This document shows, one piece after another, positions 8,568-33,491 of a DNA stretch of 38,466 nucleotides. Positions within the stretch are counted from its first letter, which is position 1. Each line of letters begins with the position of its first letter. The stretch is from NCBI RefSeq assembly GCF_001647275.1, contig NZ_LRMM01000053.1, forward strand, positions 1-38,466, in the 5' to 3' direction. This DNA is from Rufibacter ruber. GTDB taxonomy: Bacteria > Bacteroidota > Bacteroidia > Cytophagales > Hymenobacteraceae. The position numbers and the translations under genes were made by a program. The notes under the pieces were generated by a model. It was not told the origin of the DNA. It saw only the letters and a list, made by a program, of their open reading frames with translations, and ran no database searches.

Positions 8568-10364
8568 ATGCCTCAATCCACTTCTGCCTCTCCTTATCTG
8601 CTTGAAATTGCCTGGGAAGCCTGCAACCAAGTTGGAGGTATTTATACGGTCATCAGATCTAAAGTACCCGCCATGATGGAATACTGGGGAGACCAGTATT
8701 GTCTGATTGGGCCTTATTTCCCTAGCCAGGCAGCGGCCGAGTTTGAGCCTACAGATGACTACTCAGACATTTACGGGCAGGCGGTGCTGGAACTGAGAGC
8801 CCAGGGGGTGGAGGTTTATTACGGCACCTGGCTGGTGACCGGCCGGCCGCGCATTGTGCTGATCAATCCGTACAGCGCGTTCAGTGACATTCCGGCTATC
8901 AAATATTTCCTGTGGGAGCACCACCGCATTCCTACCTCTAATGAAGACCTGTTGCACCAGGTGCTGGCCTTTGGCAGTATGGTGAAGCGGTACGTGTCTT
9001 TGCTGTCAAAGAAAACGAAGAAGCTGGTGGCGCATTTCCATGAATGGATGGTGGGTTCCTGCATTCCAGACTTGCGGCGGGAGCAGGTGCCGGTGAAGAT
9101 TGTATTTACCACCCACGCCACGCTGCTTGGGCGCTACCTGGCCATGAACGACCCCAACTTCTATGACCAGCTCACCTCAGTTGACTGGCAGCAGGAGGCG
9201 CGGCATTTCAACATTGAGCCGGCCGTCTCCATTGAGCGGGCGGCGGCGCATGGGGCGCATGTGTTTACCACCGTGAGCGAGGTGACGGTGCGGGAATGTA
9301 TCTACCTGCTGGACCGGATTCCGGATACCGTGCTGCCCAATGGATTGAATATCAGAAGGTTCACCGCCTTGCATGAATTCCAGAACCTGCATTTGACGTA
9401 CAAGAAGAAGATTCACCGGTTTGTGATGGGGCATTTTTTCCAGAGCTTTCCGTTCAACCTGGACAAAACCCTTTATTTCTTCACCTCAGGGCGTTACGAG
9501 TACCGGAACAAAGGCTTTGACCTTACCCTGGAAGCCCTGGCCCGCCTGAACTACCGCCTCAAAAAAGCCAAGTCAGACATGACCGTGGTGATGTTCTTTA
9601 TCACCAAACGGCCTTTCCACTCTATCAACCCGCAGGTGTTGCACTCACGGGCACTCATGGAGGAGATACAGGAGACCTGCGAGTCTATCACGGAGCAGGT
9701 GGGGGAGCGGTTGTTTTATGAGGCGGCCGCCAGCAATGAGCACAAGGTGCCGGACCTGAACTCATTTGTTGAAGACTACTGGAAACTGCGCTACCGCCGT
9801 ACCGTGCAATCCTGGAAAACCCACCAGTTGCCGCCGGTGGTAACCCACAACCTGGTAGAAGACCAGACAGATGACATTCTGCACTTTCTGCGCGCCTCCA
9901 ACCTGGTGAACAATGCAGATGACCGGGTTAAGATTGTGTACCACCCAGATTTCGTCTCCCCGGCTAACCCGCTGTTCGGGATGGAGTATGGGCAGTTTGT
10001 GCGGGGCTGTCACCTGGGGGTTTTCCCAAGCTATTACGAGCCGTGGGGCTATACCCCGCTGGAGTGTGTGGCCAGCGGGATTCCGGCCGTGACCAGTGAT
10101 TTGTCCGGCTTTGGTGATTATGTGAAGAAGCACGTGAAGAAGTACACTGAAAAAGGGATTTACGTGATTGACCGCCATGAAAAAGGCTTTAGTGAGTCAG
10201 CAGAGCAGTTGACCAATCACTTAATGGAGATTGTGGAGCTCAGCCGCAGAGAGCGCATTAACCAGCGTAACAAAGTGGAGAGTTCCTCTGAGATGTTTGA
10301 CTGGAAAAAGCTGCTGGTGCATTACGAGCGGGCGTACCAGTTGGCGCTCAGTTCAAATATATAG
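8568..10364 (+). CDS. Glycogen synthase, GT3 family (eukaryote-like)
   Basis: A 598-residue enzyme of the fungal/animal glycogen synthase family rather than bacterial GlgA (GT5). It would elongate alpha-1,4-glucan from a nucleotide-glucose donor in the cytoplasm. GT3 signatures include WEACNQVGGIYTVIRSK (16-32), HFHEWMVG (156-163), TTHATLLGRY (181-190) and the Rossmann-domain E-x7-E pair E491/E499 in YYEPWGYTPLECVASGIP. Near the C-terminus SRRERINQRNKVE (559-571) aligns with the arginine-rich helix through which eukaryotic enzymes bind glucose-6-phosphate. The regulatory N-terminal extension of eukaryotes is absent. It is followed by a very strong terminator and shares the island with branching and debranching-type enzymes. 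Confidence 0.93.
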   Translation: MPQSTSASPYLLEIAWEACNQVGGIYTVIRSKVPAMMEYWGDQYCLIGPYFPSQAAAEFEPTDDYSDIYGQAVLELRAQGVEVYYGTWLVTGRPRIVLINPYSAFSDIPAIKYFLWEHHRIPTSNEDLLHQVLAFGSMVKRYVSLLSKKTKKLVAHFHEWMVGSCIPDLRREQVPVKIVFTTHATLLGRYLAMNDPNFYDQLTSVDWQQEARHFNIEPAVSIERAAAHGAHVFTTVSEVTVRECIYLLDRIPDTVLPNGLNIRRFTALHEFQNLHLTYKKKIHRFVMGHFFQSFPFNLDKTLYFFTSGRYEYRNKGFDLTLEALARLNYRLKKAKSDMTVVMFFITKRPFHSINPQVLHSRALMEEIQETCESITEQVGERLFYEAAASNEHKVPDLNSFVEDYWKLRYRRTVQSWKTHQLPPVVTHNLVEDQTDDILHFLRASNLVNNADDRVKIVYHPDFVSPANPLFGMEYGQFVRGCHLGVFPSYYEPWGYTPLECVASGIPAVTSDLSGFGDYVKKHVKKYTEKGIYVIDRHEKGFSESAEQLTNHLMEIVELSRRERINQRNKVESSSEMFDWKKLLVHYERAYQLALSSNI

Positions 10365-10374
10365 CACCCTGAAA

Positions 10375-10438
10375 CAGGTTCTGAAAACAAGCAAGAGGGG
10401 TCCCATCTGGGGCCCCTCTTGCTTGTTTTCAGAACCTG
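10375..10438 (+). terminator. Very long perfect hairpin after the glycogen synthase gene
   Basis: The 26-base arm at 10375-10400 (starting CAGGTTCTGAAAACAAGC, ending GAGGGG) is the exact complement of 10413-10438, with a 12-base loop that itself pairs partly (TCCC/GGGG). It begins 10 bases after the stop. There is no T run, so it may act as a mRNA 3' stabiliser or two-way barrier. Confidence 0.75.
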
Positions 10439-10578
10439 CTCATACGTTACCCTTCCGGCAGCGGCCTGCCATTTTTTTCTATTAAAATTTCCCTTAGGAA
10501 TAGAAATGGGAGAAGGCTGATTCTTGAAATTGTCAGCATTTTTATCTTTCCGGCCAATGCGTCTGCCCATATCTCAGG

Positions 10579-10626
10579 GCTTCTGTTTTTTTGCTGTTTT
10601 TCAGAAAACAGCCCAAAAACAGAAGC
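10579..10626. repeat. Palindromic repeat, copy E
   Basis: A perfect 12-bp outer stem, GCTTCTGTTTTT with AAAAACAGAAGC, and the inner GCTGTTTTTCAGAAAACAGC. Convergent position. Confidence 0.85.
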
Positions 10627-10812
10627 GCTGAAAGGCCCTTGTCCCAGTCATACATTCACAGGAGAAGAAAAGGGAAAACACGTATTTTGTTCTGGGGGGA
10701 GGTTGGTGAGTGCAGGTTCTGACTGCCCAGGGCAAGCTCTGTCTACCGCGTTGCGCCTCCCCTTTGTTCAAAAGAATGGTAGCAGGCTCTTTGGGGTTGC
10801 GCAGCGGTGGCA

Positions 10813-10851
10813 TAAAAAACGCCCCATCAGACGTTTGCTGATAGGGCGTTG
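10813..10851 (-). terminator. Intrinsic terminator of the GH31 gene
   Basis: Read on the minus strand, AACGCCCTATCAG pairs with CTGATGGGGCGTT (one mismatch) and is followed by a T run (the AAAAAA at 10814-10819 on the plus strand). It lies about 50 bases beyond the GH31 stop, behind palindrome copy F. Confidence 0.75.
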
Positions 10852-10854
10852 GGC

Positions 10855-10890
10855 GTTTTAGGGCTGTTTTCTGAAAAACAGCCCTAAAAC
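10855..10890. repeat. Palindromic repeat, copy F (perfect 16-bp stem)
   Basis: GTTTTAGGGCTGTTTT (10855-10870) and AAAACAGCCCTAAAAC (10875-10890) are exact complements around CTGA. It ends seven bases from the GH31 stop codon. Confidence 0.88.
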
Positions 10891-10897
10891 AGGAAAT

Positions 10898-13336
10898 TTA
10901 GGCAATACCGGTTACCGAGTGCAGGCTTATCTGGGTGAACCCGCTGGGGACGGTGACCACCAGCACACGTTGGTCAGCAGAGGCCTCCCAGACGGTTTCT
11001 TCGTTGTCTACCAGCACGGAGGCGGTAGGGGCAGGCAAACCGTGTATGATGATTCTGTAGCGTGGGTACGCGGCCGCCCCGCTGCCTTCTATCTGCTGGG
11101 AAATTGAGAAGGAGGCGGCAGAGGGTTCGGTCTGGAAAGTTTTGAGCTGGTAAGCCCCTTCAGTGTAGCCATAGCCCTCGCCGCCGTCTTCATACAGCGT
11201 GCTGATGTAGGGGAACTCACTGTAGTACACATGCAGGGTGGCTTCCTGAATCTCCAGCTCCCCCACATACTGCTGTACCGGGTACATGGGCAGCACCGCC
11301 CCCGCCCGCACAAACATGGGAATCCGGTCCAGCGGGGCATCTGCCCAAACCTCCTGGCGGCCAAAGACCACCTCGTCTGACCAGAAGTTGTACCACTGCC
11401 CGTGGGGCAGGTAAAGGTTTCTTCCCTCCACACCCGGGGCCGTGATGGGGCACACCAGAAGATGGTCTCCCAGGCAGAATTCAGCCATGCGGTGGTAGCA
11501 CTCAGGGTCATGCTGGTCCTGCAGAGACAGCGGCCTCAGCATGGGCGTACCCTGGGTGGCATATTGCCAGAAGGTGGTGTAAATGTAGGGCAGCAACTGG
11601 TAGCGCAACTCAATGAACTTGCGGGCCAGGCTGGTGAACGGCTCCCCAAACGACCAGGGCTCCTGATCACCGTGGTCACCAGAGGAGTGGGTGCGGCAGA
11701 ACGGGTGGAACACGGCTAACTGGAGCCACCTGATGTACAGTTCGCCGTCTGGGGTCTCAATGAAACCGCCAATGTCTGAGCCCACAAATGAAATCCCGGA
11801 GATGCTCAAGCGCTGGCACTGGATGTTGGCCAGCCAGAGGTGATCCCAGGAGGCAATGTTGTCTCCCGTCCAGGCAGAGGCGAACCGTTGCACACCGGCA
11901 TACCCTGACCTGGTAATGGTGAACGGGCGGTCTGGGTAGGAGAACTGCTTCACCCCCTCATACGTGGCGCGGGCCATCTGCATGCCATACACGTTGTGGC
12001 CTTTGCGGTGGCTGCCGGGTTCCCCGTCCATGTGCAGGCGCACATCATTGGGGAACGTGCCAATCTCAAACACCGCCGGTTCGTTCATGTCATTCCAGAC
12101 CCCTTTCACACCTACGTCCTGTATCAGACCTTTAAACAGGCCAGACCACCAGGTGCGTACATCTTGGCGGGTGAAATCCGGGAAGTGGCAGAGGCCGGGC
12201 CAGACTGTTCCCTTGTAGAGCGGGCCATCAGCGCGCCGGCAGAAATAATCATTTTGCACCCCTTCCTGGTAAACCCAGTAGTCATGGTCAATCTTAATAC
12301 CGGGGTCAATGATAACCACGGTTTTAAACCCGTCTTCTTTGAGCTCCCGCACCATGCGGGCGGGTTTTGGAAAGTGCTCATTGCTCCAGGTGAAACACCG
12401 GAAGCCCTCCATGTAGTCAATATCCAGGTACAGCGCATCACAGGGAATCTGGCGTTCCCTGAACCCCTGGGCCAGGTTTTTCACCACAGACTCTGGGTAG
12501 TAGCTCCATTTGCACTGGTGGTACCCCAAGGCCCACAGTGGGGGCAGCTCTGGGGTGCCGGTGAGCAGGGTGTAGCGCTGAATGACCTGGGTAAGCGTGG
12601 GGCCATAGATGAAGTAATAATCCATGCTTCCGCCCTGCGCCCAGAAGCTGGCCACCGTGTCGCGCTCCATGCCAAAGTCATAGAAATTCCGGAACGTGTT
12701 GTCAAAGAAGATCCCGTAGGCGTTGCGGTTGTGCAGGCCCATAAAAAAGTTGATGTTCTTGTAGAGCGGGTCTGTGCCTTTTGTATAGCCGTAGGTGTCA
12801 GTGCCCCAGTTCTCAAAGCGGCGGCCGCGCAGGTTCATGTTCTCGGCTTTGTCGCCCAGGCCATAGAAATATTCCCGTGGCTGCGCGCGCTTGCTCATCT
12901 TGACAATCTCCCCGCCGTACTCTTTGTGGTCTTCCCAGTGAAAGCCCTTCTCATCTTCATTGAGCAGGTTGCCAGATTTGTCCAGAATGCGGGTAAGCAG
13001 GCCCTTTTTTGAGATGGTGCAGATTAATTCTTTGGTGGTAAGGCGGTAATGATCAGAAAGTGCCTTAACTTTCAGCTTTACCGGGGTGGAGGCGTTGTTG
13101 GGGGCAATGGCGTAAGAAAAATCCCGGCCAAAGGTGCCGTCTGGCGCAAATCTAAAGCGTAAGATGGTCGCAGAAACAGCCTCTACCCGCAGGGCCACCC
13201 GGTTGTCACAGAGAAAGGTAGCGTAGCTGTTGTGGGTATCAACCTGAATGACAGAACCCGGAAAGAACTCTTCCCGTTTTGCCCCCAGGTCATTGATCAT
13301 GTAATTAGTATCCTGAACTGAATTATCCATGCACAA
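10898..13336 (-). CDS. GH31 family alpha-glucosidase
   Basis: An 812-residue glycoside hydrolase that should release glucose from alpha-glucans or malto-oligosaccharides. The order is an N-terminal beta-sandwich (about 30-250, with YFYGLGDKAENMNLRGRR), a catalytic barrel (about 265-600) and C-terminal beta domains. The nucleophile is D416 in WNDMNEP (414-420) and the acid/base is D492 in WTGDN (489-493); PLWALGYHQCKWSYY (266-280) is also typical. No signal peptide is visible, so it is probably cytoplasmic and acts on stored or imported glucan. The start may be the ATG at 13336 or the third codon at 13330 (MDNSVQ). It is divergent from the GT4-like gene, with a shared regulatory gap. Confidence 0.93.
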   Translation of the reverse strand: MCMDNSVQDTNYMINDLGAKREEFFPGSVIQVDTHNSYATFLCDNRVALRVEAVSATILRFRFAPDGTFGRDFSYAIAPNNASTPVKLKVKALSDHYRLTTKELICTISKKGLLTRILDKSGNLLNEDEKGFHWEDHKEYGGEIVKMSKRAQPREYFYGLGDKAENMNLRGRRFENWGTDTYGYTKGTDPLYKNINFFMGLHNRNAYGIFFDNTFRNFYDFGMERDTVASFWAQGGSMDYYFIYGPTLTQVIQRYTLLTGTPELPPLWALGYHQCKWSYYPESVVKNLAQGFRERQIPCDALYLDIDYMEGFRCFTWSNEHFPKPARMVRELKEDGFKTVVIIDPGIKIDHDYWVYQEGVQNDYFCRRADGPLYKGTVWPGLCHFPDFTRQDVRTWWSGLFKGLIQDVGVKGVWNDMNEPAVFEIGTFPNDVRLHMDGEPGSHRKGHNVYGMQMARATYEGVKQFSYPDRPFTITRSGYAGVQRFASAWTGDNIASWDHLWLANIQCQRLSISGISFVGSDIGGFIETPDGELYIRWLQLAVFHPFCRTHSSGDHGDQEPWSFGEPFTSLARKFIELRYQLLPYIYTTFWQYATQGTPMLRPLSLQDQHDPECYHRMAEFCLGDHLLVCPITAPGVEGRNLYLPHGQWYNFWSDEVVFGRQEVWADAPLDRIPMFVRAGAVLPMYPVQQYVGELEIQEATLHVYYSEFPYISTLYEDGGEGYGYTEGAYQLKTFQTEPSAASFSISQQIEGSGAAAYPRYRIIIHGLPAPTASVLVDNEETVWEASADQRVLVVTVPSGFTQISLHSVTGIA

Positions 13337-13434
13337 AAGTAAATGATAAAGAAGAACGCACTACTGTAACTTTAAGTGTTTGTTCACCATATAAGCTGCA
13401 TAAATACGGAAAGTTTAGTTCTTCTTATTTCTTA

Positions 13435-13449
13435 TTGATAAAGTATCAA
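13435..13449. promoter_or_regulatory. Dyad TTGATA-AAG-TATCAA, candidate operator
   Basis: A perfect 6-bp inverted repeat with a 3-base centre in the gap between divergent GH31 and GT4-like genes, 23 bases before the TATCTTTG box. It is placed where a repressor could act on both genes. The regulator is not identified. Confidence 0.45.
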
Positions 13450-13471
13450 AAATAAATGGATTTACTTCGCC

Positions 13472-13479
13472 TATCTTTG
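13472..13479 (+). promoter_or_regulatory. Promoter -7 box TATCTTTG for the GT4-like gene
   Basis: Exact TAnnTTTG match, 67 bases before the chosen ATG at 13547. A -33 TTG at the usual distance is not evident, which may mean an activator is needed. Confidence 0.45.
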
Positions 13480-13546
13480 TGAAGGCGAGTAGCGCTTTTG
13501 GTAATCTATACCTTTGGCCCCTGATAAAGTTGATTACGAGTTAAAA

Positions 13547-14896
13547 ATGAAGAAACTGCGCGTACTAATGTTGGGCTGGGAAGATCAGCCTGTCTTAAAT
13601 GGAGGTTTGGGGAAAGCCTGCTTTCATTTAGCTGAAGCGTTGGCAAAAGATGTTGAATTGACCATGATTGTTCCCCAGGCAGAAGAACAAGTGCTGGAGG
13701 AACAGGCGGAAGTGTTGGGGTTGGGATCATTGGACCTGTCATCTATTAAACAAGCCCCCGTTGAAAGATCTTTTGAACGCTTTGCGGATACGCACAGAGT
13801 TCCAGCTAATTTGTTCCCCTACAGTGAGTCTCTGGATCTGGAAGGGCAGGAGTACCAGCCTGAAGGGGAGGAGGAAGGAGAAGGAGTCACCGCCGCCGCC
13901 GCCGCCGCCGCCCCGGTGGCAGAGGTAACCCCAGAAGAGGCCCCCAGGCAGCAACCAGAGATTAAATATGTGGCCGGCCCTAAAGGCACCCTGAATTTTG
14001 AAGTGATCCAGTTCGCCCGTTTTGCCGCGCGTCTGGCCTCGCACAAAGAGTTTGACGTGGTGTACGCCCATGACTGGATGACGTTCCTGGCCGGAATTGA
14101 AATCAAGACCCAGCGCAAAGTTCCGTTGGTGCTACACGTGCACAGCCTGTCTTTTGACCGCCAGATTGGGCACCCGTGGGGGTGGATCTACGAGCTGGAG
14201 GTGAAAGCATTGCAGGCGGCAGATTTAGTGATTGCCGTGAGTGAGCGTACCGCCCAGATGATGATCAAACGCTACGGCATCAGCCCTAAGAAAATTCGGG
14301 TGGTGTACAACGGCTTTTCGGGCCGGTTTATTCCCGTGTCTTCTGCTGAACCTAAAAAACAAGTAACGTTCCTGGGCCGCCTGGTGGCGCAGAAGGGGAC
14401 TCTCCAGTTCCTGAAAGTGGCCAAAGAGGTGATGAAGCAGGACCCGGAAGTGAAGTTTGTGGTGGCAGGGCACGGCCCGCAGTTAGAGGAAGCCAAACAC
14501 CAGGTCCAGAAATTAGGCATTGCCGAATCTGTTACGTTTACCGGCTTCCTTGATTCAGACGCGGCCGTAGATTTACTGAGAACCTCAGGGGTGTTCTGCC
14601 TCCCTGCCGTATCTGAGCCGTTTGGTTTAGCGGCGCTGGAGGCTACCCAGGCCGGGCTTCCGGTAGTATTGTCCAGCCAGACCGGGGCCGGAGAGGTCTT
14701 GCCCAAAGCCAGTATCAGTGACCCCAATGATGTGGCCGGCATGGCTGAACACATTCTGGAGCTTCTGAGGGATAATGCCTTGCGCCAGGAGATGGTGGAG
14801 GCCAACCAGGAAGCCATTCAGGAACTCACCTGGGAGGCGACCGCTGCCCAGGTGTATGAGGCCTTAACAGCTGTGCTCAAGGTGAAAGAAGACTAA
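13547..14896 (+). CDS. Glycosyltransferase, GT4/GT5-like (glycogen/starch synthase fold)
   Basis: I chose the ATG at 13547 (MKKLRVLMLGWEDQPVLNGGLGK); an upstream TTG at 13514 is less likely. The N-terminal NGGLGK loop resembles the ADP-glucose-binding K-x-GG-L of GT5 starch synthases. HDWM (175-178) is in the acceptor cleft. The C-terminal Rossmann domain has FLGRLVAQKG and the E-x7-E pair E357/E365 (SEPFGLAALEATQAG). The 449 residues include an insert at about 95-140 that is acidic and poly-alanine, coded by seven GCC repeats. Its place among glucan genes suggests a role in alpha-glucan or maltosyl transfer. Donor and acceptor are unknown, and it may instead make another polysaccharide. Confidence 0.85.
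   Translation: MKKLRVLMLGWEDQPVLNGGLGKACFHLAEALAKDVELTMIVPQAEEQVLEEQAEVLGLGSLDLSSIKQAPVERSFERFADTHRVPANLFPYSESLDLEGQEYQPEGEEEGEGVTAAAAAAAPVAEVTPEEAPRQQPEIKYVAGPKGTLNFEVIQFARFAARLASHKEFDVVYAHDWMTFLAGIEIKTQRKVPLVLHVHSLSFDRQIGHPWGWIYELEVKALQAADLVIAVSERTAQMMIKRYGISPKKIRVVYNGFSGRFIPVSSAEPKKQVTFLGRLVAQKGTLQFLKVAKEVMKQDPEVKFVVAGHGPQLEEAKHQVQKLGIAESVTFTGFLDSDAAVDLLRTSGVFCLPAVSEPFGLAALEATQAGLPVVLSSQTGAGEVLPKASISDPNDVAGMAEHILELLRDNALRQEMVEANQEAIQELTWEATAAQVYEALTAVLKVKED
13889..13914 (+). repeat. GCC trinucleotide microsatellite coding poly-alanine
   Basis: ACC followed by seven GCC codons (13892-13912) and CCG, in a low-complexity linker of the glycosyltransferase. Slippage here would change linker length without shifting frame. 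Confidence 0.85.
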
Positions 14897-14919
14897 CACT
14901 TACGGACCAATTTTTAGTT

Positions 14920-14964
14920 TTAAAAGGCAGAGGCCTCCATTTATTGGAGGCCTCTGCCTTTTAA
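14920..14964 (+). terminator. Strong bidirectional terminator of the GT4-like gene
   Basis: TTAAAAGGCAGAGGCCTCCA (14920-14939) pairs perfectly with 14945-14964 over 20 bp around TTTAT. The A/T ends allow function on either strand. It lies 24 bases after the stop. Confidence 0.88.
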
Positions 14965-15048
14965 ATTCTGTGCAGGTTGTTCAGCCTTCTGGAATAGACT
15001 AAGCCTGCGCCAGAAGGATACCCCTTTGTTTAACTGGAGAGAATAGCC

Positions 15049-15095
15049 TGCCTCTGGTTTGGGGTTGTTTTCAGAAAACTAAGCCAGAAACAGCA
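15049..15095. repeat. Palindromic repeat, copy G (AACTAAGCC subtype)
   Basis: Decayed copy: CTCTGGTTTGGGGTTGTTTT then CAGAAAACTAAGCC and AGAAACAG. It shares the TAAGCC variant with the copies at 4406 and 27804. Confidence 0.55.
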
Positions 15096-15202
15096 GTGGG
15101 TCCAAAAAATGCCTGAGCCCTAAAAGTACGTTCAGCTCTGAGTAGGGGAAAGTGAAGCCGGTGCCAACCTGCCTTTGCTAGTACCTGACATGGCGTTTGG
15201 TG

Positions 15203-15245
15203 TTCCTGTTTTGGTGTTTTGACCAAAACAGCCCGAAAACAGGAA
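15203..15245. repeat. Palindromic repeat, copy H
   Basis: TTCCTGTTTT (15203-15212) pairs perfectly with AAAACAGGAA (15236-15245); the inner arm GGTGTTTTGACCAAAACAGCC is partly decayed. It ends four bases from the branching-enzyme stop. Confidence 0.82.
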
Positions 15246-15249
15246 GATG

Positions 15250-17277
15250 TTAGTCTACCCGCCGTAACACCAGGGCTGTGCGGTTGGGGAGGTAAATGCT
15301 TAACCTGGGGCCGTAGGTGGTGGGTTGGGTGAAATATTTGATGCGGGTATCTACGCGGTCATGGCCGCCTGTCTCCGGGCTGTCAGAAGACAGCAGGATC
15401 TCATAGCTGCCGGCGTTTTGTACCGGGAACAGATAATCAGGCACTGAGTTCTGGACATGGAAATTGAAAAGGAAGATCAGCCCGGCCCGTTCAAAGATCA
15501 GTACGTTGTTGAAGTTGTCCTGATGCAGCTTATGGGCTTGCCCCTGCTCCAGTAGGTGGTTTTCCTTGGCCAGGGCCAGCATCTCTTTTTCAAATTGCCA
15601 CATGTGCCGGTAGCGCAACTGCTCGTTGTCTACCAGAGACCACTGCCGGCGGGCATACTGGTAACTCCAGTTATTGCCTTCCCGCGGGAAATCTACCCAT
15701 TCAGGGTGCCCAAACTCATTGCCCATGAAGGTGAGGTACGCCTCGCCACCCAGGGCCATGGTAATAAGCCTGATCATTTTGTGGAGCGCAACGCCGCGGT
15801 CAATCACGGGGCTCTGGTCTGTGGTGCGCATGTGAAAGTACATGTCTTTGTCCATGAGCCAGAAGGCCAGGGTTTTGTCGCCCACCAGAGACTGGTCATG
15901 AGATTCAGCGTAGGCCACTGTTTTCTCCTGGGGGCGGCGGTTGGTGAGCTCGTGCCAGATTTCGTCCAGGTTCCAGTCCTCGTCGCGCTTGTGTTTGAGG
16001 GTTTTGATCCAGTAGTCTGGGGTGCCCATGGCCAAACGGAAGTCAAACCCAATGCCGCCTTCTTTTATGGGGCGGCAGAGGCCGGGCATGCCGCTCATGT
16101 CCTCGGCAATGGAGATGCTGCCTTTTCTCACGGCATGGCTGAGCTCATTGGCCAGCTGCAGATACAGAATGGCATCTTCATCTACCCAGGAGTCAAAGTA
16201 GCGGTCATAATGCCCAAAGGCTACGCCTTCGCCGTGGTGGTGGTACAGAATAGAGGTGACGCCGTCAAACCGGAAGCCGTCAATATGGAACTCTTCCAGC
16301 CAGTAGCGCACGTTTGACAACAGGAACTGCCGCACTTCTGGCACCCCGTAATTGAAAAGCTTGGAATCCCACCCGGGGTGGTGCCCGCGTTTACCTTTAT
16401 GGAAGAACTGCCCCCCGGAGCCGTCAAAGTCTGCCAGTCCCTCTGCCACGTTCTTGACCGCATGGGCGTGAATGAGATCCATCACCACGGCAATGCCCAT
16501 GCCATGCGCCTCGTTGACCAGGTACTTTAAGTCTTCGGGTGTGCCGAAACGGGAGGTAGGGGCAAAGAAGTTGGAGACGTGGTACCCAAAAGAACCGTAG
16601 TAGGGGTGCTCTGCCAACGCCATCAACTGAAGGCAGTTATAGCCCGTCTCTTTGATGCGGGGCAGAATTTGCTCTGCAAACTCCCGGTACGTACCCACCC
16701 CGTGCTTTTCCTGGGCCATGCCTACGTGGCATTCGTAGATAAGCGGTTCGGTGACCTCTGTGGGTTTAAAGTTCTTGTCCGTCCACTTGAACTTCTTGTC
16801 AGGGCACCATACCTGACCCGAGAAGTCATAGCTTTCAGGGTCCTGGACGGACCGGAAGGCGAAGGGGGAGATTCGGTCCCGGGCAGAGCCGTCGGCGCCT
16901 ACCACGTGCACCTTGTACCGCTGCCCGTGCTGGATCTGGCACTCAGAAGCCGGAATGAATGCTTCCCAGTTTCCGTTCTCCTGCCGCCGGAGGGGGTGGC
17001 GCTGTCTGTCCCAGCCGTTGAAATCACCTATCAGAAAGAGGGCCTGGGCCGCCGGGGCCCATTCCCGGTACCGCCAGCCGTTGTTCTCCTTTTCATAGTG
17101 AAGGCCCATGTCGCGGTGCCAGTTGGCATAATTGGCCAGCGTTCCGGCAGACCTTTTAATAGCGGCTGTTTCTTCCTGAAAGCGTTCTAAGCGTTTGGTG
17201 AGCTGGGGGGCATACGGCGTGAGCCAGGGGTCTAGCTTAACAAGCGGTAATGAAGGGGGTACCTTTGGCATAATCAT
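15250..17277 (-). CDS. glgB: 1,4-alpha-glucan branching enzyme, eukaryote-like GH13_8 type
   Basis: A 675-residue cytoplasmic enzyme that cuts alpha-1,4 chains and rejoins them by alpha-1,6 branches. It has a CBM48 domain (about 55-160, REWAPAAQALFLIGDFNGW), then a GH13 barrel. The nucleophile is D338 in DGFRFDGVTSILYHHHG (333-349), the acid/base E392 in IAEDMSGMPG and the stabiliser D461 in AESHDQSLVGDK. The HHHG signature, VGTYREFAEQILPRIK and SHDQSLVGDK follow the animal/fungal/plant branching enzyme pattern rather than E. coli GlgB. It pairs naturally with the GT3 synthase 5 kb away. The ATG at 17271 (MPKVPP) is an alternative start. It is divergent from the secreted amylase gene. Confidence 0.93.
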   Translation of the reverse strand: MIMPKVPPSLPLVKLDPWLTPYAPQLTKRLERFQEETAAIKRSAGTLANYANWHRDMGLHYEKENNGWRYREWAPAAQALFLIGDFNGWDRQRHPLRRQENGNWEAFIPASECQIQHGQRYKVHVVGADGSARDRISPFAFRSVQDPESYDFSGQVWCPDKKFKWTDKNFKPTEVTEPLIYECHVGMAQEKHGVGTYREFAEQILPRIKETGYNCLQLMALAEHPYYGSFGYHVSNFFAPTSRFGTPEDLKYLVNEAHGMGIAVVMDLIHAHAVKNVAEGLADFDGSGGQFFHKGKRGHHPGWDSKLFNYGVPEVRQFLLSNVRYWLEEFHIDGFRFDGVTSILYHHHGEGVAFGHYDRYFDSWVDEDAILYLQLANELSHAVRKGSISIAEDMSGMPGLCRPIKEGGIGFDFRLAMGTPDYWIKTLKHKRDEDWNLDEIWHELTNRRPQEKTVAYAESHDQSLVGDKTLAFWLMDKDMYFHMRTTDQSPVIDRGVALHKMIRLITMALGGEAYLTFMGNEFGHPEWVDFPREGNNWSYQYARRQWSLVDNEQLRYRHMWQFEKEMLALAKENHLLEQGQAHKLHQDNFNNVLIFERAGLIFLFNFHVQNSVPDYLFPVQNAGSYEILLSSDSPETGGHDRVDTRIKYFTQPTTYGPRLSIYLPNRTALVLRRVD

Positions 17278-17401
17278 TCAGTTGGACAGGCTTAAACTAC
17301 ATCTTCTTAGCTGAAGAAGCAATTTCAGGCCCCGTGGAATCTTCTTGTGTTGAAAGTTGATAAAAACACTAGGTATTTGACAGAAAGTTTTGATAATTTA
17401 G

Positions 17402-17421
17402 CAAGGAAATCGTTTTCCTTG
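17402..17421. promoter_or_regulatory. 20-bp dyad CAAGGAAA-TCGT-TTTCCTTG, candidate operator
   Basis: Perfect 8-bp arms in the divergent gap between branching enzyme (start 17277) and amylase (start 17473). Its size and symmetry suit a LacI-type or other dimeric sugar-responsive regulator. The binder is unknown. Confidence 0.5.
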
Positions 17422-17472
17422 ATGCAGGGTCATCTTGATCTTTCCATCATCATAACTCTTAAAGCCTATTGC

Positions 17473-20301
17473 ATGAAAACTACGTTCCGAATACTTGGCT
17501 TGTTGCTGCTACTGTTGGCGTATACGGCAAAAGCACAGGTTGTGACTTGGTCACCCGCCTATCCCACCCACAATGAAGCGGTCACCATCACGTTTGACGC
17601 CTCTAAAGGGACTGGCGGGCTGGCCGGTTTTACCGGTGACGTCTACGCCCACACCGGCGTACTGACCAACCTCAGCACCTCAGTGGGCGACTGGCGCTAT
17701 GTGAAAGCCGGGTGGACCACCAACCTGGCTGCGGCCAAAATGCAGCCTCTGGGGAACAACCGGTACCAGATTACCCTCACCCCGCGCACTTACTACAACG
17801 TGCCGGCCAGCGAGGAAATCAAAGCCCTTATGTTTGTGTTCAGGAGCCCAGATGGCTCCCGTGAAGGAAAAGACACGGGGGCCAAAGACATACAGGTCCC
17901 TATTTATGCTGCGGGGAGCCTGAATGTGACCTTCAACCAACCTGTGTTGGGGAGCAACGGGCTTTTTGTAGATCAAAACCAGACCGTTCAGGTGAGTGGT
18001 ACTGCGTCATTAACGGCTGACCTGGCGCTGTATGTGAATGGGGTGAAAATCAAAGAGGAGGCCCAGGCTACCACTATTTCAGCCTCATTTAATGGTACTA
18101 CAGCCGGGCCAAACACCGTGAAACTGGTAGCCGTGAGTGGGGCCACCACTGCTGAGACCTCTTTCAATTTTGTGGTGCGCCCCCCTGTGCAGACGCAGGA
18201 ACTCCCCGCCAATGCCAAAGACGGGGTTACGTACCTGAGCCCCACCAGTGTGCTCCTGAACCTGTATGCCCCCGGTAAGCAGAATGTGTATGCCATTGGT
18301 GACTTTAACAACTGGCAGGTAGGGGCCACCCCTATGAAACGTACACCAGACGGCACCAGGTATTGGGTGCAGCTAGATAACCTCACCCCTAAGCAGGAAT
18401 ATGCGTACCAGTACCTGGTTGATGAAAGCATTAGAATAGGGGACCCGTACACCCAGAAGGTGTTAGACCCCAATGAAGACCGCTTTATCAGTGCAGAGAC
18501 CTATCCTAACCTGAAGCCTTACCCAACCGGGAAAACCAGCGGCATGGTGTCTGTCTTTCAGACAGACCAGACCCCGTATGTGTGGCAGGTGCAGAATTTC
18601 CAGAAGCCCAAGAAAACAGATCTGGTGGTGTATGAGCTGCTGGTGCGTGACTTTATTGAGAAGCATGACTACCAGACCCTCACAGATACGCTGGCTTATT
18701 TAAGCAGGCTGGGGGTGAACGCTATTGAGCTGCTGCCCATTCAGGAGTATGAAGGCAACCTGAGCTGGGGCTACAACTCAGTGTATTATTTCGCGCCAGA
18801 TAAATACTACGGGTCAAGAGAAATGCTGAAACGGTTCATTGATGCCGCCCACGCGCGGGGAATGGCCGTGATCCTGGATATTGCCCTGAACCACTCCTTC
18901 GGGCAGTCACCCATGGTACAGCTGTATTATAACCAGGCTACCGGAAAAACCACGCCTAACAGCCCCTGGTTTAACCCTGATCCCACCCATGACTACAACG
19001 TGGGGCATGACTTTAACCATGAGAGTGCCGCCACCAAATATTTTGTAGACCGCGTGACAGAGTTCTGGCTACGGGAGTACAACATTGACGGGTACCGCTT
19101 TGACCTCTCCAAGGGGTTCACCCAGAGACAGACCCTGGGCAATGTGAATGCTTGGGGGCAGTATGACCAGAGCCGCGTAGACATTCTCAAGCGTATGGCA
19201 GACCATGTCTGGAGCGTGAAGAATGATGCCTATGTCATCTTGGAGCATTTGGCAGACAACAGTGAAGAAACCGTGCTGGCCAATTACGGCATGATGCTCT
19301 GGGGCAACCTGCATTACAATTACAAACAGGCGGCGTTAGGGTATACCAGCAATGGCAACTTCAACTGGATCTCCTACAAGCAGCGGGGCTGGAACAGTCC
19401 GCACGTGGTGGGGTACATGGAAAGCCATGATGAGGAGCGGCTCATGTATGAGGCGCTGACCAACGGGAACAGGGTGAGCACCGCGCCGGGTGCTTACAGC
19501 ATTAGAAACACCAATACCGCCCTGCAGCGTATGGAACTGGCCGCGGCGTTCTTCTTTACCGTTCCGGGCCCTAAAATGCTCTGGCAGTTTGGCGAAGTGG
19601 GGTATGATATCTCCATCAACCAGAATGGCCGCACCGGGAACAAGCCCATCTTGTGGAACTACTACTCGGTGGCCGAACGGCGGGAGCTCTACAACGTTTA
19701 TGCCGGACTGATCAAGCTGAAAATCAACCAGCCGGTGTTTGAGACAGAAAACTTCACCCTGAACCTGGGAGACAACCTGAAGACCATCCATTTGCAGGAT
19801 GCCAACATGAAAGTAGCCGTTCTGGGCAATTTCGGGATAACAGCGGGAACCATTGATCCAAGGTTTCAGCAGACAGGCACCTGGTATGACTACATTACCG
19901 GCGAAGCCCTGAATGTGACCAACGTCAACCAGGCTATTACGCTACAGCCCGGCGAATACCGCTTGTACACCTCCAGCCGGTTGAACAGCAACGGTATTCT
20001 CCTGAGTGTGAAGGAAGATGTTGGGGCCGTGGCCCAGCGACTAAACGCTTTCCCTAACCCGGTAGCCACCAACCAGATCACCCTGCAGTACGAGCTGAAA
20101 AGCGCCACAGACGTGCGGGTACAGCTGTATGACCAGGTGGGTAAATTGGTGAAAGAGAAACATCTGGGGAAACAGGCCGCCGGAAGCCAACAGATCAGCC
20201 ATTCTTTAGCTGACAAGGGCGGGCGCTTGGCACCCGGGCTTTACCTGATCAGGCTGATCACGGGGGCCACCGCTTCTACTGCGCAGCTGATAGTGAAGTA
20301 A
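17473..20301 (+). CDS. Secreted GH13 alpha-amylase family enzyme with T9SS sorting domain
   Basis: The ATG at 17473 opens with a signal peptide (MKTTFRILGLLLLLLAYTAKAQ), so it is preferred to an upstream TTG at 17347. The 942 residues comprise an N-terminal beta domain (about 22-145), an Ig/CBM-like domain (about 148-238), a CBM48-like domain (about 250-345, VYAIGDFNNW) and a GH13 barrel (about 380-770). The nucleophile is D544 in GYRFDLSKG, the acid/base E591 in VILEHLADN and the stabiliser D653 in MESHDEER. The last 85 residues are a type IX C-terminal sorting domain (FPNPVATNQ..VQLYDQVGKLV..GLYLIRL). It should hydrolyse starch or pullulan-like glucans at the cell surface or outside; exact bond specificity is unknown. 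A terminator follows within 20 bases. Confidence 0.93.
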   Translation: MKTTFRILGLLLLLLAYTAKAQVVTWSPAYPTHNEAVTITFDASKGTGGLAGFTGDVYAHTGVLTNLSTSVGDWRYVKAGWTTNLAAAKMQPLGNNRYQITLTPRTYYNVPASEEIKALMFVFRSPDGSREGKDTGAKDIQVPIYAAGSLNVTFNQPVLGSNGLFVDQNQTVQVSGTASLTADLALYVNGVKIKEEAQATTISASFNGTTAGPNTVKLVAVSGATTAETSFNFVVRPPVQTQELPANAKDGVTYLSPTSVLLNLYAPGKQNVYAIGDFNNWQVGATPMKRTPDGTRYWVQLDNLTPKQEYAYQYLVDESIRIGDPYTQKVLDPNEDRFISAETYPNLKPYPTGKTSGMVSVFQTDQTPYVWQVQNFQKPKKTDLVVYELLVRDFIEKHDYQTLTDTLAYLSRLGVNAIELLPIQEYEGNLSWGYNSVYYFAPDKYYGSREMLKRFIDAAHARGMAVILDIALNHSFGQSPMVQLYYNQATGKTTPNSPWFNPDPTHDYNVGHDFNHESAATKYFVDRVTEFWLREYNIDGYRFDLSKGFTQRQTLGNVNAWGQYDQSRVDILKRMADHVWSVKNDAYVILEHLADNSEETVLANYGMMLWGNLHYNYKQAALGYTSNGNFNWISYKQRGWNSPHVVGYMESHDEERLMYEALTNGNRVSTAPGAYSIRNTNTALQRMELAAAFFFTVPGPKMLWQFGEVGYDISINQNGRTGNKPILWNYYSVAERRELYNVYAGLIKLKINQPVFETENFTLNLGDNLKTIHLQDANMKVAVLGNFGITAGTIDPRFQQTGTWYDYITGEALNVTNVNQAITLQPGEYRLYTSSRLNSNGILLSVKEDVGAVAQRLNAFPNPVATNQITLQYELKSATDVRVQLYDQVGKLVKEKHLGKQAAGSQQISHSLADKGGRLAPGLYLIRLITGATASTAQLIVK

Positions 20302-31608: not shown

Positions 31609-31908
31609 ATGTTTATTGCGCTTAGTACCTTTACCATTGCCAATGATATGGCACCTGCTGTAAAAGAGGCATTTATGAACCGTCCCGGTTTAGTGAACAA
31701 TGCCCCGGGCTTTGTGAGGCTGCAGGTAATCTCACCCACAGACAACCCGCAGGAGATTTGGTTGATCACACAGTGGGTAGATGAGGAAAGCTACAAAACC
31801 TGGCACCACAGCCACCTCTACCATGAGTCACATGAAGGCATTCCCAAGGGGCTGAAACTGGTGCCCCGCTCGGCAAAAGTCAGGTTCTTTGAACACATTT
31901 GCGAGTAG
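31609..31908 (+). CDS. ABM-fold monooxygenase (antibiotic biosynthesis monooxygenase/heme-oxygenase-like)
   Basis: The ATG at 31609 gives MFIALSTFTIANDMAPAVKE, a typical first strand; an upstream TTG is less likely. The 99 residues cover one ABM domain: NAPGFVRLQVISPTDNPQEIWLITQW, then ESYKTWHHSHLYHESH. The WLITQWxDEESYKTWHHS segment is shared with HmoA/IsdG-like heme-degrading members, where N and H residues shape the heme pocket. The substrate is not certain. It is the first gene of the operon with the B12-binding protein, nine bases downstream. Confidence 0.82.
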   Translation: MFIALSTFTIANDMAPAVKEAFMNRPGLVNNAPGFVRLQVISPTDNPQEIWLITQWVDEESYKTWHHSHLYHESHEGIPKGLKLVPRSAKVRFFEHICE

Positions 31909-31913
31909 GGAGG
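31908..31913 (+). promoter_or_regulatory. Shine-Dalgarno GGGAGG before the cobalamin protein
   Basis: GGGAGG lies four bases before the ATG at 31918 and partly inside the end of the preceding gene, suiting coupled translation. Confidence 0.55.
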
Positions 31914-31917
31914 CGGT

Positions 31918-32976
31918 ATGGCAGAAATCAGGAGAAAAACCGCCGCGCTGCTAAAACGCATGAGTGCTGAGCTGGCGCAGGAAACCACCCAGAAGTTCTT
32001 CCATCTTCACCCGGAGTTGGAGGAGAAGTACGGTGCCATGGGCCGTGAGAAATGCCGCCAAGACGCCCAGTACCACCTCTCGTACCTGATAGAAGCGGTG
32101 GGGGCGGGCTCCATGACCCTGTTCAGTGACTACGTGCTCTGGACGCAGGAGGTCCTGGAAACCCGTAAAGTTCCGGTGAAGGACCTGCATGAACACCTCA
32201 TTATCCTGAAAGACGTCATTGCCCTGCACCTGCCCATTGACCAGTATGTGCGGGTGGCCAACCACTTGAACAACGCCCTGCAATTGCTGGAAGAGAAGAA
32301 CGGCCTGGAACCGCAACCCGAGGAACCGTTGGAACCGCTGGCCCAGACCTATCTGGAGCTTCTTCTGGCAGGCAAGCGCAAAGAGGCCAATGATATGATT
32401 CTGCAGGAGGTGGCCCAGGGAATGGAGGTGAAGGAACTTTATCTCACCGTGTTTCAGCCGGTCCAGCACCGGGTGGGGAGGCTGTGGCAGACCAATAAAA
32501 TCACCGTGGCCCAGGAGCACTTCTGCACGGCCATCACCCAGAGCATCATGTCGCAGCTATACCCGTACATCTTTGGGTCAGAGCGCAACGGGTATAAATT
32601 GCTAGCCTCTTGCGTGGCCGGTGACTTGCACGAGCTGGGGCTGAGAATGGTGAGTGATTTCTTTGAGATGGAAGGCTGGGATACCTATTATCTGGGGGCC
32701 AATGTGCCCACGGCCAGCATCCTCAGTTCCCTGAGGGAGCATCAGCCAGACCTGCTTTTATTGTCTGCCACCATGACCTTTCACGTACAAGCCTTAAAAG
32801 ACATCATCAGGGCGGTGCGGGCAGCAGAAGATCTGCAGGAGATTAAAATAATGGTAGGCGGCTATCCGTTTAACCTGGAAGAGGAGCTTTGGAGGGAAGT
32901 TGGGGCAGACGGCTATGGTGCCAATGCCAAGGAAGCCATGGAATTAGCATTGGGGTTGGTATCTGTGAGGAAGTAA
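31918..32976 (+). CDS. CarH-like cobalamin-binding protein without a DNA-binding domain
   Basis: 352 residues. The C-terminal two thirds are a B12-binding module: a helical cap (about 140-220) with W190-x9-E200-H201 (LWQTNKITVAQEH), the W-x9-EH signature of CarH/LitR adenosylcobalamin photoreceptors, then a Rossmann domain with D236-L-H238-E-L-G241 (DxHxxG, lower-ligand His) and GG at 314-315. In place of the MerR helix-turn-helix of CarH, the first 130 residues are an all-helical domain (KCRQDAQYHLSYLIEAVGAG) resembling sensor domains of RsbRD-like proteins. TtCarH has a His directly after the Trp; here it is Q191. It probably senses light or cobalamin state and signals by protein contacts, perhaps with the next gene product. 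Family certain; function inferred. Confidence 0.87.
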   Translation: MAEIRRKTAALLKRMSAELAQETTQKFFHLHPELEEKYGAMGREKCRQDAQYHLSYLIEAVGAGSMTLFSDYVLWTQEVLETRKVPVKDLHEHLIILKDVIALHLPIDQYVRVANHLNNALQLLEEKNGLEPQPEEPLEPLAQTYLELLLAGKRKEANDMILQEVAQGMEVKELYLTVFQPVQHRVGRLWQTNKITVAQEHFCTAITQSIMSQLYPYIFGSERNGYKLLASCVAGDLHELGLRMVSDFFEMEGWDTYYLGANVPTASILSSLREHQPDLLLLSATMTFHVQALKDIIRAVRAAEDLQEIKIMVGGYPFNLEEELWREVGADGYGANAKEAMELALGLVSVRK

Positions 32977-32980
32977 AAAA

Positions 32981-32986
32981 AGGAGG
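32981..32986 (+). promoter_or_regulatory. Shine-Dalgarno AGGAGG before the PAS-like gene
   Basis: AGGAGG with four bases to a TTG at 32991 supports initiation there; the ATG at 33012 has only AAAGGA next to it. Confidence 0.5.
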
Positions 32987-32990
32987 AAGC

Positions 32991-33491
32991 TTGGAGGCAG
33001 TAAGCAAAGGAATGGTTTGGCGGTGTGACCGCCGCGGTATTGTGCTGGAGGTGATCAGTTCAGATTTCCCTGAAATCAGCCACGCAGCCCTGGGGCAACC
33101 GTTTTCTTCTGTCTTAGAGGAGGCCGGCCAGGAACTGGCTGAGGAGTGGCTTCAACAAGTATCAAAGGACTCCCGCCTGCTGGCCAACCTTACAATCAAA
33201 CAAAACCTTTCACCCCAACCTCTATCTTTAGGCGGAATCAGAAGCAGTGGCGAGTACTGGCTTTTCTGGACTACTGGCCGCGTAGGGCCCGCCTCTAATC
33301 TACCACAAATCGAAAAGGGGGAGAGTACTGAGTCTGCCCAGGTCTGGGAGCCAGATGCGCAACACGTAGAACTGCTGGAGGAACTCAGCCGGGTGAACAA
33401 TGAACTGGTCAACGCCCGCCGCGAACTCATCAGGCAGAACATTGAACTGCACCGTGCGCATCAGAAGCTGACCAATGCCGGAGTCATGTGA
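32991..33491 (+). CDS. PAS-like sensor with C-terminal coiled coil
   Basis: 166 residues from TTG 32991 (or 159 from ATG 33012). The N-terminal part (VWRCDRRGIVLEVISSDFPE, HAALGQPFSSVLEEAG, EYWLFWTTGR) has the strand-helix pattern of a PAS domain. The end (QHVELLEELSRVNNELVNAR, then RELIRQNIELHRAHQKL) is a heptad coiled coil like those that join PAS domains to kinase or phosphatase output domains. No output domain follows; the frame stops at 33489-33491 and a palindromic repeat begins at once. It starts 14 bases after the cobalamin gene, so they are co-transcribed. It may be a stand-alone relay protein or a truncated kinase. Confidence 0.65.
   Translation: MEAVSKGMVWRCDRRGIVLEVISSDFPEISHAALGQPFSSVLEEAGQELAEEWLQQVSKDSRLLANLTIKQNLSPQPLSLGGIRSSGEYWLFWTTGRVGPASNLPQIEKGESTESAQVWEPDAQHVELLEELSRVNNELVNARRELIRQNIELHRAHQKLTNAGVM

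Follow-up and report, generated by a model that had tools for sequence, protein, structure and literature searches.

Photocobilins such as SasPcob and AbDPcob combine a B12-binding module bearing W..EH and DxH motifs with a phycobiliprotein-like globin domain, and red-light sensitization via a bilin has been demonstrated in published members of the class (PMC10979010). In SasPcob, green or red light was shown to break the Co-C bond and to bring about an oligomeric or domain change (PMC10979010). We examined a related system in Rufibacter ruber (family Hymenobacteraceae), within the 38,466 nucleotides of contig NZ_LRMM01000053.1 (assembly GCF_001647275.1, positions 1 to 38,466, forward strand) that we call the window. 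Three co-directional genes on the plus strand (31609-31908, 31918-32976 and 32991-33491, with gaps of 9 and 14 bp) encode a predicted heme-degrading-type enzyme of the ABM fold (gene 1), a protein that is, judged by its domains and residues, a photocobilin (gene 2), and a small partner without a kinase (gene 3). We put the probability at roughly 0.66 that these genes make up a dual-chromophore light receptor operon with its own chromophore supply. The receptor class has been known since 2022-2024; the chromophore-supply enzyme and the output variant are apparently new. The features are as follows.

31609..31908, +, gene 1: predicted ABM-fold (IsdG-like) heme-degrading-type enzyme, 99 residues (PF03992, 49.6 bits)
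31908..31913, +, ribosome-binding-site-like GGGAGG ahead of gene 2 (from sequence)
31918..32976, +, gene 2: predicted photocobilin, globin domain then B12 domain, 352 residues (Pfam, alignment to SasPcob)
31918..32298, +, phycobiliprotein/photoglobin-like bilin domain, N-terminal, residues 1-127
32053..32064, +, CXQD bilin motif C46-R47-Q48-D49, aligned with phycobiliprotein CXRD
32335..32571, +, B12-binding helical bundle (PF02607)
32485..32487 (W190) and 32515..32520 (E200-H201), +, aligned to W61, E71 and H72 of SasPcob
32584..32955, +, B12-binding Rossmann domain (PF02310)
32623..32625 (D236) and 32629..32631 (lower-ligand H238), +, H238 aligned with His108 of SasPcob
32981..32986, +, ribosome-binding-site-like AGGAGG ahead of gene 3 (from sequence)
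32991..33491, +, gene 3: kinase-less partner, 166 residues, PAS-like domain at about residues 3-100 (model) and coiled-coil helix at 123-165

Scanning named genomes of bacteria and archaea confirmed 315 relatives of gene 2, and the best 80 of these, a selection biased towards the query, were analyzed. The relatives include Rufibacter, Adhaeribacter, Pontibacter, Azospirillum, Heliobacterium, Paenibacillus, many metagenome-assembled genomes (MAGs) and one Lokiarchaeota MAG. We found that W190, E200 and H201 are kept in all 80, H238 in 79, D49 in 77 and C46 in 38, and that the closest solved relatives of gene 2 are photocobilins. Every residue of the signature named in an earlier, sequence-only reading of this DNA (W190, E200-H201 and D236-x-H238-x-x-G241) is present. 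That reading had described a CarH-like protein with a helical sensor domain in place of its DNA-binding domain. The light-sensing B12 module without a helix-turn-helix holds up, with no MerR match to gene 2 in a Pfam scan, but the domain found in its place is a globin matching PF00502, and because this domain is of the phycobiliprotein-like, bilin-binding type we assign gene 2 to the photocobilins and not to variants of CarH. AerR and the AppA SCHIC proteins, unlike gene 2, are not known to have a globin domain. CarH and LitR, which are MerR-B12 repressors, differ from gene 2 both in their DNA-binding domain and in the residue next to W190, which is Gln191 rather than the His of CarH-type bis-His ligation. 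The earlier reading treated this Gln as an oddity; however, SasPcob has the same Gln, and in its light state the ligand is water or hydroxide, without bis-His ligation (PMC10979010). A CarH variant was rejected as a candidate on two grounds, namely that gene 2 has no MerR domain and that the genome's own MerR-B12 protein is a separate one (G000:C146). This CarH-type protein of 327 residues lies at L175 1016-1999, and beside it is a 152-residue gene that we take, by its look, to be hydroxylase-like and likely involved in carotenoid metabolism.

Gene 2 departs from SasPcob and AbDPcob in that its globin precedes the B12 module, an order mentioned among the groups in PMC10979010, and it has a Cys three residues before the Asp where SasPcob has Thr; the resulting CXQD motif has already been published for photoglobins (PMC10151467). 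D49 corresponds to Asp270 of SasPcob by an alignment that is weak in this stretch and whose numbering was converted by hand. The genome also carries an adenosyltransferase for adenosylcobalamin (AdoCbl; PF01923). Gene 2 is very probably a B12 photoreceptor, to judge from its residues and fold, and it is highly likely to bind a bilin as well. That it might instead be a metabolic corrinoid protein with a methyltransferase partner, an idea to which weak NCBIfam corrinoid matches lend something, seems barely tenable and was rejected: these matches score far under their cut-offs (the best, MtgC, reaches 74 bits against 370), the Trp and Glu-His clamping the adenosyl group are those of CarH and photocobilins, its best solved relatives are photocobilins, and a sensor kinase adjoins in many relatives. 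Corrinoid methyltransferases were seen in none of the orthologue neighborhoods listed, no systematic methyltransferase search having been made.

The sequence-only reading had placed the ABM enzyme in one operon with gene 2, as we do, and found the three-gene layout unfamiliar; it proves to recur widely, with the third place normally taken by a histidine kinase. Of the 80 relatives, 31, from 8 phyla, have an ABM orthologue next to the photocobilin (phmmer E 3.7e-22 to 6.5e-61), and 4 of the 31 loci belong to the window's own family. The ABM gene lies upstream on the photocobilin's strand in 30 of the 31, spaced by -14 to +55 bp in 29 of these; only in L106, from a Thiotrichaceae MAG, is it on the opposite strand, and the photocobilin there continues into an 819-residue open frame, possibly fused to a signaling domain. 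In 49 of the 80 the photocobilin is followed by a partner, mostly a histidine kinase, whose coiled coil is conserved. The layout in the window is the local version of this more widespread operon. In at least 5 of the 80, a gene found close upstream of the photocobilin encodes a canonical heme oxygenase (four divergent, one on the same strand, PF01126 confirmed in all five), a lower bound given that the scan effectively used two seed proteins (L056, L057), and no locus of the 80 has both enzymes. Because the position of the ABM gene is the same as that of BphO, the heme oxygenase beside the bacteriophytochrome BphP, we infer a corresponding role for it, although BphO is of an unrelated fold and gene 1 also adjoins a photocobilin. 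BBAG-2 clusters likewise bring together a bilin-binding globin, a B12 domain and an enzyme that cleaves heme, but there the globin and B12 domain are on separate proteins, and a heme oxygenase and bilin reductase replace the ABM enzyme (PMC10151467).

Of 150 genomes from the window's family, 70 have the ABM orthologue and 47 have PF01126, and none has both. A phytochrome PHY domain is no more than 3 kb away from the heme oxygenase in at least 46 of its 47 genomes, and no more than 6 kb away from the ABM gene in at least 39 of its 70. Among 129 PHY-bearing genomes, 68 have ABM, 47 have the heme oxygenase and 14 have neither, while the 21 genomes without PHY (G143 being counted here by elimination) have neither gene in 19 cases and ABM in 2. 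These two, Adhaeribacter G001 and G007, both carry the photocobilin operon and have ABM there only. Given this adjacency to photocobilins and phytochromes, the absence of overlap with heme oxygenase, and the presence of ABM in operon-bearing genomes without PHY, we consider it likely that gene 1 makes the bilin. In the window's genome there is no PF01126 match and no HugZ-type heme oxygenase (no match to the DUF2470 profile), and the operon copy is the only orthologue of gene 1, a second and different ABM-domain gene lying at C98. Two PHY matches are among the matches listed for this genome; one of these phytochromes (L176 2893-4476, G000:C1:239904; 527 residues with a PHY domain) seems to end without a kinase, a second receptor in this genome without an evident output domain.

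The ABM gene occupies 71 places in the family, of which 8 are the operon itself, 20 were inspected, and 2 are second copies in inspected genomes. Among the 20, six adjoin a bacteriophytochrome-looking protein of 741-760 residues, two a phytochrome-like protein of 518-535 residues, and four a protein of about 1370 residues (presumably CheB-like, by its look) with PHY some 4.5-4.8 kb off; six are at the etfBA locus and two elsewhere. The ABM copy of G013 has an internal stop. Six g3 (Pontibacter-type) genomes (L065, L066, L070, L071, L077 and L080) have ABM at the etfBA locus and no photocobilin, and in their relatives this locus is the site of the photocobilin operon, which suggests that the photocobilin was lost around a kept ABM gene.

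We also compared the bilin-binding positions with the presence of the enzyme. A strong relative of gene 2 is found in 26 of the 150 family genomes (E no higher than 3.8e-54); the remaining genomes, with one exception, have only weak B12-domain matches (best E 2.4e-13), and one such match that we inspected is the MerR-B12 protein of the window's genome. Positions 46 and 49 were inspected in all 26 photocobilins. The eight that have ABM and the third gene adjoining, five from the window's genus (window included) and three named Adhaeribacter, all carry both C46 and D49. In the remaining 18, neither an orthologous ABM nor a partner gene adjoins, according to sequence searches and, for 13 of them, listed neighbors, and their residue 49 is Gly, Glu, Gln, Ser, Leu, Ala or His. 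Ten of these D49-less photocobilins are in PHY-less genomes, none of which has ABM or heme oxygenase, and seven of the eight in PHY genomes have one or the other elsewhere. Photocobilins of genera g5 and g6 (15 at L031-L040 and L169-L173, probably Hymenobacter and kin) are without C46 as well and have His after the Trp, as in CarH; they may sense through B12 alone and keep the globin domain as a relic.

These patterns bear on the idea that the globin is structural only, that AdoCbl and green light are sensed alone, and that the ABM enzyme serves heme or quinone housekeeping, present by chance or for iron recycling. AbDPcob binds biliverdin weakly and is still light-responsive (PMC10979010), the 18 family photocobilins described above manage without D49 or an adjoining ABM orthologue, and ABM, although present in 70 of 150 genomes, adjoins a photocobilin in only 8. 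Yet D49 is retained in exactly the eight with an ABM neighbor, the adjacency recurs in 8 phyla, and the two genomes that have neither PHY nor PF01126 keep ABM in the photocobilin operon only, and we regard a purely structural globin as quite improbable.

Several observations nevertheless weigh against a dedicated chromophore supply by the ABM enzyme. As many as 44 of the 80 relatives have neither ABM nor heme oxygenase in their flanks, although some flanks are very short, with upstream sequence nearly nil (as in L108 and L147) and ABM absence there uninformative. In the family, 31 of the 70 ABM genomes have no PHY within 6 kb among the matches listed, 14 of the 129 PHY-bearing genomes have neither enzyme, the split between the two enzymes largely tracks genus, and heme oxygenase scores in g6 are close to the cut-off. 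Seven of the 18 D49-less photocobilins sit in genomes with a bilin source elsewhere, and the D49-less photocobilins of L036 and L038 have distantly related ABM-like genes (23-25% identity) 2-4 kb away. SasPcob, which is without the Cys, binds biliverdin non-covalently (PMC10979010). A tree of 99 proteins shows just two losses of D49, so the link between D49 and ABM rests on few independent events; seven of the 80 loci (L082-L086, L089 and L134) were already in the family set and were left out of this tree, though kept in the counts out of 80. The ABM label changes 9 times on the best tree, 5 of these forced by well-supported branches. Since independent changes are too few for a sign test of D49 against chromophore source to reach significance, the association is suggestive and not statistically independent. 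C46 occurs in 20 of 31 ABM-linked and 18 of 49 other photocobilins (Fisher p 0.02, not corrected for relatedness), and Cys46 as a mark of ABM-linked photocobilins was dropped, being not significant on independent pairs of the tree.

The active site of gene 1 bears on which bilin would be made. Relatives of gene 1 in the PDB are HmoB, IsdI and MhuD, and its closest NCBIfam model is HmuQ (35.2 bits, cut-off 130). HmuQ is a biliverdin-forming enzyme. With IsdG, IsdI, MhuD, HmoB and HmuQ, gene 1 has in common the fold and the positions of the conserved Trp and the axial-ligand His; it differs from them in a Ser at the catalytic Asn position, an IPKGLKL-like motif and the bilin photoreceptors it adjoins. 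Ser6, Arg25, Trp65, His75 and the IPKGLKL-like motif mark its subfamily. The catalytic triad of IsdG is Asn7, Trp67 and His77 (PMC6018153); gene 1 has Trp65 and His75, with Ser6 replacing the Asn, and because the Asn is missing we do not file it as IsdG proper but as heme-oxygenase-like by context. The Trp and His positions are conserved in the 31 operon-linked orthologues, all 31 of which have Ser at the catalytic Asn position of HmoB and IsdG, as do all 20 other ABM contexts inspected. This altered site would fit an enzyme that makes a non-biliverdin pigment, cleaved as in staphylobilin or mycobilin or otherwise, for use by both photocobilin and phytochromes, and the IsdG-type enzymes in the literature that we cover give staphylobilin, mycobilin or other non-biliverdin products (PMC9393634). 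However, beside phytochromes the ABM gene occupies the place that a canonical, biliverdin-making heme oxygenase has in sister genera, and because both enzymes hold this same place we argue for the same product and consider a different pigment unlikely; the biliverdin formed by HmuQ, the closest model, points the same way. Either the altered site of the ABM subfamily still yields biliverdin, or the photoreceptors use another bilin.

The third gene, described in the sequence-only reading as a PAS-like/coiled-coil protein without an output domain, has no HisKA or HATPase domain, and both domains are present in all four of the partners we scanned. Gene 3 shares its N-terminal region and the LNNEL coiled coil with the partner kinases, and its coiled-coil helix carries the VNNELVNARREL signature. 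It has no Pfam or NCBIfam match; the PAS assignment, to its detriment, is model-based, with Pfam PAS unmatched in gene 3 and in the four partners alike. Gene 3 was found in 8 of the 150 family genomes. A protein search with gene 3 covered proteins of 0.55-1.75 times its length, a range that excludes full-length kinases. We judge genes 2 and 3 to be quite probably direct partners, on the strength of their conserved adjacency, and in the window's lineage the kinase of this partner is gone while a conserved PAS-plus-coil protein remains, probably an adaptor. Since this partner is without an output domain, signaling by protein contact, as the earlier reading had suggested, is the likely route.

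It could be argued that gene 3 is a functionless, decaying remnant of the partner kinase, given that nothing of the kinase and little of the first NNEQ segment is left and that it evolves faster than its neighbors (between the window and L021, gene 3 is 51% identical, gene 2 65% and gene 1 91%). On the other hand, the frame is intact in 8 genomes of 3 genera, with a length of 164-173 residues in seven and 189 residues from an upstream start in the eighth (L022), the coil signature is retained, and estimated ratios of nonsynonymous to synonymous divergence (dN/dS) are 0.10-0.32 where finite (6 of 8 pairs), although dS is close to saturation, which takes some force from the estimate. We therefore think decay improbable. 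A displaced kinase core was also considered and rejected: a relative's partner kinase gave 59 matches in the window's genome, all beginning at query residue 89 or later, the match in the operon being the coil of gene 3. None covers the PAS-like N-terminus, so no single kinase can be named as the trans partner, and the chances that gene 3 acts in trans through another kinase appear to be even.

A mechanism can be proposed along these lines. Gene 1, as genome comparisons suggest, would cleave heme to a linear tetrapyrrole. The C-terminal module of gene 2, by its residues and fold, would bind AdoCbl with His238 as its lower ligand and with Trp190 and Glu200-His201 lying against the adenosyl group, and the N-terminal globin, by homology with SasPcob and the phycobiliproteins, would hold the bilin via Asp49 and perhaps covalently via Cys46. 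Green light, or red light via the bilin, may then break the Co-C bond and cause an oligomeric or domain change, as in SasPcob. Conserved adjacency points to gene 3 as the cognate partner receiving this signal; in what is the weakest step, it would most likely bind the photocobilin and relay in trans, for example to one of the many histidine kinases of the cell. That protein contact can serve for regulation was demonstrated in vitro with stand-alone photocobilins and a cyclase domain (PMC10979010).

Term searches of the main text of the photocobilin and bilin-globin papers gave no mention of a monooxygenase or histidine kinase (PMC10979010, PMC10151467), nor, for the former, of an operon with an ABM enzyme and kinase-less partner as in the window. 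The parts of the literature on heme-cleaving ABM enzymes that we cover concern iron acquisition or heme turnover, and in them we found none described as a photoreceptor chromophore source. Our literature searches showed no link of ABM enzymes to phytochromes or photoglobins, although the photoglobin-B12 study by Schneider et al. (2022), whose title names signal-transduction systems, may already show the ABM neighbor. Tentatively, and at somewhat less than even odds, we suggest that the Ser6-Trp-His IPKGLKL ABM subfamily is an undescribed class of photoreceptor-chromophore synthase that replaces heme oxygenase as the bilin source of photocobilins from at least 8 phyla and of bacteriophytochromes from Rufibacter- and Pontibacter-type bacteria, with the window's partner as a PAS-coil adaptor regulating kinases in trans and the photocobilin perhaps Cys-charged. 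If this is true, bacterial bilin photoreceptors without a recognizable heme oxygenase would gain a chromophore source, optogenetics would gain a 99-residue chromophore enzyme supplied together with its sensor, and how phycobiliprotein-like globins obtain their bilin would become testable. The kinase-less partner would be a naturally occurring example of a two-component sensor that has apparently become an adaptor.

A few neighboring genes deserve mention. In Adhaeribacter terrigena (L025, G001), a 486-residue gene that we take to be KaiC-like, by its look, lies on the same strand about 0.5 kb 3' of the partner gene. Upstream of the stand-alone photocobilins of Pontibacter L028 and L029 are divergent genes that are presumably photolyase- and short-chain-dehydrogenase-like, again by their look. 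The window itself also holds an ordinary glycogen/alpha-glucan cluster at 8568-20301, with a glycogen synthase, a GH31 enzyme, a glycosyltransferase and two amylase-family genes.
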